From: an uncultured Bacteroidota bacterium
GTDB taxonomy: Bacteria; Bacteroidota; Bacteroidia; Chitinophagales; Chitinophagaceae
DNA: 43,868 nt
Assembly (NCBI GenBank): GCA_903929195.1
Contig: CAIYTT010000221.1
Coordinates: 1 to 43,868 of the forward strand
Direction: 5' to 3'
The notes beneath the pieces are model-generated. The model made no database searches, was not told the origin of the DNA, and saw nothing but the letters and a program-made list of their open reading frames with translations. Below are positions 41,850 through 42,786 of this stretch, one piece after another. The translations under genes were made by a program, and so were the position numbers. Positions within the stretch are counted from its first letter, which is position 1. Every line of letters starts with the position of its first letter.

Positions 41850-41924
41850 CGCGAGATAGAGCAGCGGTAGCTCGTCGGGCTCATAACCCGAAGGTCATAG
41901 GTTCGATCCCTGTTCTCGCTACCA
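41850..41924 (+). tRNA. Initiator tRNA-fMet (anticodon CAT)
   Basis: A 75-base cloverleaf with encoded CCA. The acceptor arms CGCGAGA and TCTCGCT pair except at position 1-72 (C opposite T), the unpaired end that marks bacterial initiator tRNAs. The anticodon stem has three consecutive G-C pairs (GGG/CCC) around CTCATAA, a second initiator feature. The T-arm contains GGTTCGATCCC. It starts translation as formyl-methionyl-tRNA. A hairpin with T-run follows directly, and a serine recombinase remnant overlaps the 3' part on the other strand. Confidence 0.93.
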
Positions 41925-42786
41925 AAGAGGGAACATGCAATTCAAATTGCAGTTCCCTCTTTTCTTTTTCCCCTGAAAGCCTTGCCAGTCGTGTAATGTA
42001 GCGAAATGCTTCATTCACCTTTGGGGTTCGACACTGGTCTTTTTTTCGATTGTAGTATATTCCTTCAGGAAAGACCATATACTGAAGCTCTTGTCTGTCA
42101 TTGTAATCAGCGGAAGCCCATTCTGGAGCGAGTTTCGAGGATGTTCTAAAGGCAGTGTCTATGTATAAATCAAGGTTCGACACCCTATTCCCAAATTTTG
42201 CCCGTTCCTTTTCAATATCCTTCTTTTCGTCAACGAATTTCGCCTTGAATTTATCGAACATATCCTTGGTTATTTCCTCCAAAACATATCGTTCCTCTAG
42301 GCGCTCCAACTTCTTATCTACCTCCGCTAATTGCTTTTCGATGTTCTGAATGTTCTCTTCTTTCTGCTCATTCGACTTATTGTATTCCACGATCATTTGC
42401 TCCTTTATAAGATACTGCATTTCATCATCAAATTCAAGACAGTATTCTGACAATGTTTGAGCGAAACGTTCGTGAAGAGTATCAGCCCTCATATTGCAGT
42501 TGCAACCCTTTGTGTTGCATTTATAGTAATATTTCTGATTCTTGTAAGCCTTGTATGCCCTGAGAAACTGCCCACACTCATCGCACTTATAAAACCGTTT
42601 AAGCGGTATTTCGTCATTCTCAGGGTTGGTACGATAGCCTTGTTTGTTTTCAGATAGAACATCATTAGCCTCAAGGAAAAGCTCTTTAGAGATCATCTTC
42701 TCGTGATTGCCCTCGATTACCTGACCTTCCAAAGCTGTATGCACCATTAAGCCACAATAAAACGGATTACGGAAAAAGGCTGAAAT
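41881..42786 (-). pseudogene. Serine recombinase C-terminal fragment, antisense overlap with tRNA-fMet
   Basis: C-terminal part of a large serine recombinase. In phase before the first ATG (42747) it reads SAFFRNPFYCGLM, the conserved start of the recombinase domain, then LEGQVIEGNHE. A zinc-ribbon (CDECGQFLRAYKAY, later CNTKGCNC) and a long coiled coil follow. The catalytic resolvase domain with its Ser is absent; a TAA (42787-42789) and the IS4-type element lie where it should be, so the gene is broken. The 3' end reads VARTGIEPMTFGL: it runs antisense through the tRNA, and the TGA stop lies opposite the tRNA anticodon region. This suggests integration of an element at the tRNA. Confidence 0.8.
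41924..41970 (+). terminator. Terminator of tRNA-fMet, also coding on the other strand
   Basis: The arms AAAGAGGGAAC (41924-41934) and GTTCCCTCTTT (41952-41962) pair perfectly and are followed by a T-rich run. On the minus strand the same bases code for the recombinase peptide KRELQFELHVPSL. Confidence 0.7.

Follow-up and report, generated by a model that had tools for sequence, protein, structure and literature searches.

The window, a stretch of 43,868 nucleotides that makes up the entire contig C221 of an uncultured Chitinophagaceae genome, very probably contains the left end (attL) of a ~33-kb island (from C221:41923 across an insertion sequence and through C71 to position 30848) that was placed at the 3' end of an initiator tRNA gene by a large serine recombinase (LSR) from a Bacteroidota clade specialised on tRNA and tmRNA genes. 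The single tRNA that ARAGORN finds in the window is a complete tRNA-Met(CAT) (41850-41924, forward strand), the attB target gene of the element. We take it to be an initiator (tRNA-fMet) from the GGG:CCC pairs of its anticodon stem and its unpaired 1:72 position. An identical second copy lies on contig C59 of the same genome, where it carries a 2.1-kb insert without a recombinase (C59:27181-29318, L058). We infer from sequence that C71:30848 is the far end of the window element (~33 kb including the insertion sequence); the 28-bp P-arm that ends the C59 insert recurs there without a mismatch (C71:30821-30848).

Opposite the tRNA runs the C-terminal half of an LSR (41881-42786, reverse strand; assigned by Pfam and relatives), a frame of 301 codons (288 aa from the ATG at 42747) that closes with VARTGIEPMTFGL and a stop codon (41881-41883) overlapping the anticodon of the tRNA-fMet. 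An earlier note on this DNA had described a serine recombinase frame that extends 44 bases into the antisense of this tRNA and stops at the anticodon, and the ARAGORN call and the ORF coordinates agree with it; the last 14 codons plus the stop (41881-41922) are host tRNA antisense. The frame is only the C-terminal half of the protein. Pfam detects the end of the Recombinase domain (E 1.2e-6), with a zinc-ribbon match slightly below the cut-off, and the gene is cut by an IS4-type insertion sequence (42788-43868, reverse strand) whose DDE transposase (42847-43866) runs past the contig end. The N-terminal resolvase half lies at C71:117-851, the sole PF00239 match in the genome, and starts on the opposite side of the insertion sequence from the window half. 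The assembly leaves C221 and C71 unconnected, the break falling within the insertion sequence; a candidate 9-bp target duplication found by eye (GCTGAAATT, 42779-42787) has its second copy on C71 beside the other end. An intact 568-residue frame in genome G140 (L012) has 93% identity over the recombinase half in the window.

Upstream, a ~170-base MITE-like repeat (41556-41725) with 86-87% identity to four other places in the genome separates a kinase gene (37712-41437) from the tRNA. The ortholog of this kinase gene in genome G299 (contig C121) is followed by different sequence without an fMet gene, the next gene there presumably encoding an M28-type peptidase.

Target genes and T-loop geometry

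The family has the domains of an LSR, that is, a resolvase domain with the catalytic serine, a Recombinase domain and a zinc ribbon. PF00239 and PF07508 score above the cut-off in all four full-length relatives searched (L128, L148, L150, L180), the zinc ribbon being below the cut-off in three of them and unlisted in L128, and the Y-R-V-S motif is invariant across 10 alignment rows. An order-level search of 298 genomes gave matches in 77, the window genome included. Antisense overlap with a tRNA or tmRNA, on many tRNA kinds, was found in 27 of 32 loci of the order (the best loci of 29 other genomes plus three of the window genome, the window among them; the remnant L010 was omitted). In the GTDB collection, 60 of 80 loci overlap a tRNA or tmRNA; these are the best 80 of 559 confirmed relatives, mostly from Chitinophagaceae, Pedobacter, Mucilaginibacter and unnamed Bacteroidota. 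The same holds for 18 of 20 distant relatives (21-29% identity) that were hand-picked, mostly because their match extended to the end of the query; of the remaining two, one has a tRNA-Leu further inside the frame and one a tmRNA-like tail. The survey sets overlap slightly (L014 is L128 and L012 is L149). The overlap in the window is not a chance arrangement: relatives show the same arrangement at numerous further tRNA genes.

A quick tree of 96 members holds 20 target types and at least 48 changes of target, and recombinases that are 99% identical sit at Phe and at Met tRNAs (L170/L173). The antisense T-loop reads as the pattern [GR]xE[PL] in the recombinase frame of 55 of the 60 overlapping loci, the exceptions being two in other frames (L146, L170) and three that stop before the motif (L129, L163, L169). 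ARAGORN overlap is absent in 19 of 79 closed ORFs; part of these have the attP form, or partial-tRNA or tmRNA ends, and others (e.g. L133, L153, L156, L162) fit none of these explanations. A search of 50,697 phage records returned no match to the recombinase and a plasmid search none either, while IMG/VR gave 10 matches at 24-45% identity.

Three more decayed family members occur in the window genome (C186:4965-5684 and C28:43696-43887, L009 and L011; C28:82156-82302, L010), and two of them end in antisense tRNA-Pro and tmRNA. The site of L012 (G140:C23:310117), with its far end near C23:281154, has only ~14 tRNA-Arg-like bases and is perhaps a secondary or decayed site. A 90-residue ORF (C71:848-1120, reverse strand, L041) overlaps the start of the recombinase; it has conserved counterparts immediately upstream in 65 of 74 family loci and is a candidate recombination directionality factor or partner.

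The targets share a fixed geometry. In the window, the T-loop motif TCGAAC (41901-41906, reverse strand), which we propose as the zinc-ribbon (ZD) motif of attB, has its first base at position 17 from the junction; in 56 of 60 attB sides it begins at this same position, counted from the conserved GT codon where the tRNA ends. In attP, TC[GT]AAC starts at base 22 in all six P-arms that were found independently of the motif, namely those of C59 (through its repeated terminator), G201 (through a 12-base repeat) and L150, L163, L180 and L201 (through gene ends). Resemblance to the C59 arm led to the arms of C71, G140 and G253. The G213 and G047 arms come from a scan whose pattern demanded position 22, so they do not test the offset. 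Among 12 compared far ends one has TCGAAT, and the G140 tRNA side is without the motif. The junction valine is an invariant column in a 31-row alignment, and the other attB half differs between loci wherever far ends were compared.

For the LI integrase, the available text of Rutherford et al. 2013 places the zinc-ribbon motif at positions 16-24 in attP and 11-19 in attB (PMC3783163). Given the same 5-bp shift, the T-loop is, by analogy, the likely zinc-ribbon site of this clade, and attP and attB differ as those of serine integrases do, the proposed ZD motif lying 5 bp further from the junction in attP. We propose that the recombinase would recognise the universal T-arm, binding TCGAAC at 17 in attB and at 22 in attP, and that close relatives would move between tRNA genes because the T-arm is nearly universal.

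The recombinase tail and recombinase-free cassettes

Read in the recombinase frame, the far ends encode protein tails, each closed by a stop codon: VGSTGEMSNQLYEDLIEIYMVAEKLKL on C59, VGSTGEMSNQIWDDLIKIYNVAQRLKL on C71, VPKTSPSSNVLIDDLKHLIDFAVKLR in G201 (tRNA-Leu) and VEKGGELSNFLGDFERLCHYLRL in G253 (tRNA-Phe), with further ones in G140, G213 and, six in number, G047. The tails are 23-33 codons long, and uninterrupted genes with such tails exist in L150, L163, L180 and L201. L163 is a tandem in which 5 kb separate the tailed gene from another recombinase, one that ends in tRNA-Phe, and L150 has a second recombinase further along. This geometry places attP within the recombinase ORF, with 23-33 codons left before the stop; because of this location, integration leaves the native C-terminal tail at attR and the integrated gene gains a tRNA-antisense tail.

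The tails combine two patterns of variation. Codons 1-9 hardly vary (pS 0.05-0.06, pN 0.05-0.10) and are nearly invariant at all sites, as expected of an att site. From codon 10 to the end, pS is 0.70 and pN 0.20 among five tails (four from the window genome and that of G140), and 0.42 and 0.22 among four G047 tails; these samples are small and the tails related, and the values suggest a selected protein end. In an AlphaFold model (mean pLDDT 79, last 40 residues below 55) the tail may form a helix behind a disordered stretch, at low confidence. The best PDB fold matches are serine integrase complexes, with TM-scores no higher than 0.2-0.4 when the multi-domain model (pTM 0.40) is compared as a whole.

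We tentatively propose, with less than even confidence, that integration controls the recombinase. Reading of the T-arm would open nearly any tRNA gene to it; exchange of a conserved C-terminal helix for tRNA antisense would switch its activity (e.g. from integrating to locked or excision-prone); and recombinase-free defence cassettes, carrying only the P-arm/tail and terminator, would pile up in tandem on tRNA genes in an integron-like manner. That the exchange is instead a neutral by-product, attP happening to lie in the last codons, any tail working and the tRNA tail having no role, strikes us as close to an even call. Such neutrality would agree with the variable length of the frame from the tRNA end onward (9 to 303 bases), with the low-confidence tail helix predicted behind a disordered stretch, and with retention of the P-arm in recombinase-free cassettes because it is the att site. 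Yet the codons beyond the P-arm look conserved as protein, and a SNxL..DL tail pattern recurs in elements on both fMet and Leu tRNAs, both of which argue against neutrality.

The cassettes themselves were characterised with PADLOC, run on 18 chosen proteins. From the recombinase to C71:30848, the window element holds type I restriction-modification genes, a CBASS set (cyclase, E2, phospholipase), a second cyclase and a DrmD-like helicase, 2 of the 10 proteins having no PADLOC match. The adjoining segment (C71:30849-36602), closed by another tail, holds Gabija genes and a PDC-S58/ApeA-like gene, and the following one (C71:36603-37685) a PDC-S09 gene and a partner without a PADLOC match; a decayed recombinase end comes after the cassettes. 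The C59 insert matches the candidate defence system PDC-M29A/B. In the Gabija cassette, gajA occupies two overlapping frames (C71:31187-33021; L042:11187-13021), which may reflect either a disrupted gene or an error in the assembly.

Cassettes that lack a recombinase but have the same ends stand in tandem, several of them with defence genes. In G047, six tails are spread across 46 kb; the one closest to the recombinase, which sits at tRNA-Ala, is 32 kb away from it. By eye, these modules also contain genes of other kinds, so defence is not the sole content of the cassettes. A minimal element of ~2.3 kb may be present in L155, where a tail precedes the recombinase by 0.7 kb. Cassettes of this kind would be mobilised in trans by the recombinase and build up one behind another.

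Occupied and empty sites, and the position of the crossover

The earlier note's claim that a serine-recombinase element integrated at the fMet gene is supported; the note had also suggested looking at the empty site in relatives. In G298 the fMet gene is followed at once by a native-looking terminator, much like the one beside the C59 fMet gene; the orthology of this empty site rests on the common 3' terminator. In G299, an fMet gene that has its upstream genes in common with the C59 copy leads into 41 bases resembling the end of a family recombinase, after which the contig stops. The C59 fMet gene was rejected as an empty site on account of its insert, which is bounded by its own terminator on one side and by the P-arm/tail on the opposite side, and whose right end GGTTCGACATTTCCCCTGTCGAGCCTAC abuts ACCGCAAAAAAGCC, the flank after the tRNA in G298.

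For the window element, the far end and the tRNA side share only CTAC (41919-41922, tRNA positions 71-74; GTAG in the recombinase sense). The tRNA body is therefore host DNA, and the crossover lies within the last four bases of the tRNA, which stays complete. Across 12 comparisons, junction identity is 4-12 bases to the right (12 in G201, 8 in G213) and 0-1 to the left, consistent with crossover at a short identity block as for serine integrases. This model arose from a direct-repeat search at far ends, in which one 12-base repeat (G201) proved real and matches of 10-18 bases were due to chance. A loose far-end scan yielded many chance hits, and hits were accepted only if tail-like, on the recombinase strand and upstream of the recombinase. 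The strict scan also gives chance hits (three on the opposite strand, six in shuffled sequence), and 5 of its 11 hits (L133, L136, L164, L182, L186), gene-internal or unlikely, were discarded. In the 70 kb scanned for G273 and the 56 kb for G239, no far end was accepted.

Behind the occupied tRNA, within the recombinase coding sequence of the opposite strand, lies a terminator-like hairpin with a T-run (41925-41968, forward strand) that comes from the element. The 55 bases behind the tRNA fold with z < -2 relative to dinucleotide shuffles in 77 of 80 distinct flanks (mean -5.6); in control stretches of the same genes the mean is -0.1, with 4 of 80 below -2. At least four T follow within eight bases of the last pair in 70 of the 80 flanks. 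With such strong folding and T-runs, the element appears to supply the terminator of its target tRNA. What it adds behind the tRNA is this hairpin, in which transcription would end, and sometimes the CA of CCA.

Classical tRNA integration, the model of the earlier note, has the element bring a copy of the tRNA 3' half and restore the gene after a crossover near the anticodon. It would suit an element at a tRNA 3' end with a recombinase frame terminating in the tRNA; split-and-restore is the usual tyrosine-integrase pattern according to the available text of PMC4383910, and a degenerate 54-base tRNA 3' part in G299:C71 demonstrates that such fragments exist. The direct repeat of 41881-41924 that the note had suggested seeking was not found: the sole other full-length copy in the assembly is the complete fMet gene on C59, and the far end (C71:30821-30848) holds no displaced tDNA fragment of the Islander type. 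With the displaced 44-bp fragment absent from the assembly, and attR and tRNA side identical over just the short junction blocks, we consider this model very unlikely and dropped it in favour of crossover in the last tRNA bases. The G299 fragment belongs to L104 (G299:C71:1-360), a related recombinase end fused to the 54-base fMet 3' part with no 5' part, which we read as a decayed attL. Frames antisense to a tRNA often resemble peptide tails in annotations, but a spurious ORF read-through unrelated to integration is extremely improbable here, given that junction position and frame are conserved on 20 target kinds and that empty and occupied sites and matching far ends exist.

Significance and comparison with known systems

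An entire serine-integrase clade is devoted to tRNA and tmRNA genes, contrary to the statement, in the available text of the Islander paper, that only tyrosine recombinases are known to target tDNA (PMC4383910). A simple rule, the universal T-loop as a zinc-ribbon motif at a fixed distance, would let one family use at least 20 tRNA/tmRNA targets while its proteins change little. Repeat-based searches would miss these islands because only 4-12 bases repeat; exact ends can now be given for them, and small recombinase-free cassettes with defence genes are exposed. The putative integration-dependent C-terminal switch becomes directly testable, and the many natural, strongly conserved landing sites of such enzymes make them interesting as genome tools.

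A 2011 study described tRNA genes as rare targets of serine integration, its available text naming phage phiRSM1 (tRNA-Ser 3' end) and eight Mycobacterium AICEs (tRNA-Leu) (PMC3218068). The available texts of PMC3218068 and PMC4383910 accord with the earlier note's remark that tRNA genes are infrequent LSR targets, a remark that fails for this clade, in which tRNA/tmRNA targeting is the rule. In the main text, as available, of a systematic LSR study the term tRNA does not occur (PMC10083194). Among the matches listed in a search of open-licence papers, preprints excluded, by titles and abstract openings, neither a tRNA-targeting Bacteroidota LSR clade nor such a C-terminus swap was found. The LSR machinery is ordinary; the target, att location and terminator arrangement were not found described in the literature searched.

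Like phiC31, Bxb1 and A118/LI-type LSRs, these enzymes combine Resolvase, Recombinase and zinc-ribbon domains and share short crossover identity, and they appear to have the 5-bp ZD shift between attP and attB reported in the available text for known serine integrases (PMC3783163). Unlike them, this clade targets the universal T-arm of tRNA/tmRNA genes, with only the tRNA half-site conserved among targets; its attP lies inside the recombinase ORF, and it carries a terminator for its target. An attP in a coding gene is also found in the integration-dependent switches of mycobacteriophages such as BPs, which involve a repressor and a tyrosine integrase and in which integration alters a protein C-terminus because of that location; here it is the serine recombinase itself that changes, with a host tRNA giving the new end. 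phiRSM1 and the Mycobacterium AICEs likewise place a serine recombinase at a tRNA gene, each at one tRNA compared with at least 20 targets here, and their descriptions, in the available text, are without T-loop geometry, tail swap or cassettes (PMC3218068). Islander-type tyrosine-integrase islands resemble the present elements in occupying tRNA/tmRNA 3' ends and leaving the gene intact; according to the available text they split and restore the tDNA and leave a displaced fragment (PMC4383910), whereas the islands described here belong to another enzyme family and leave no long fragment.
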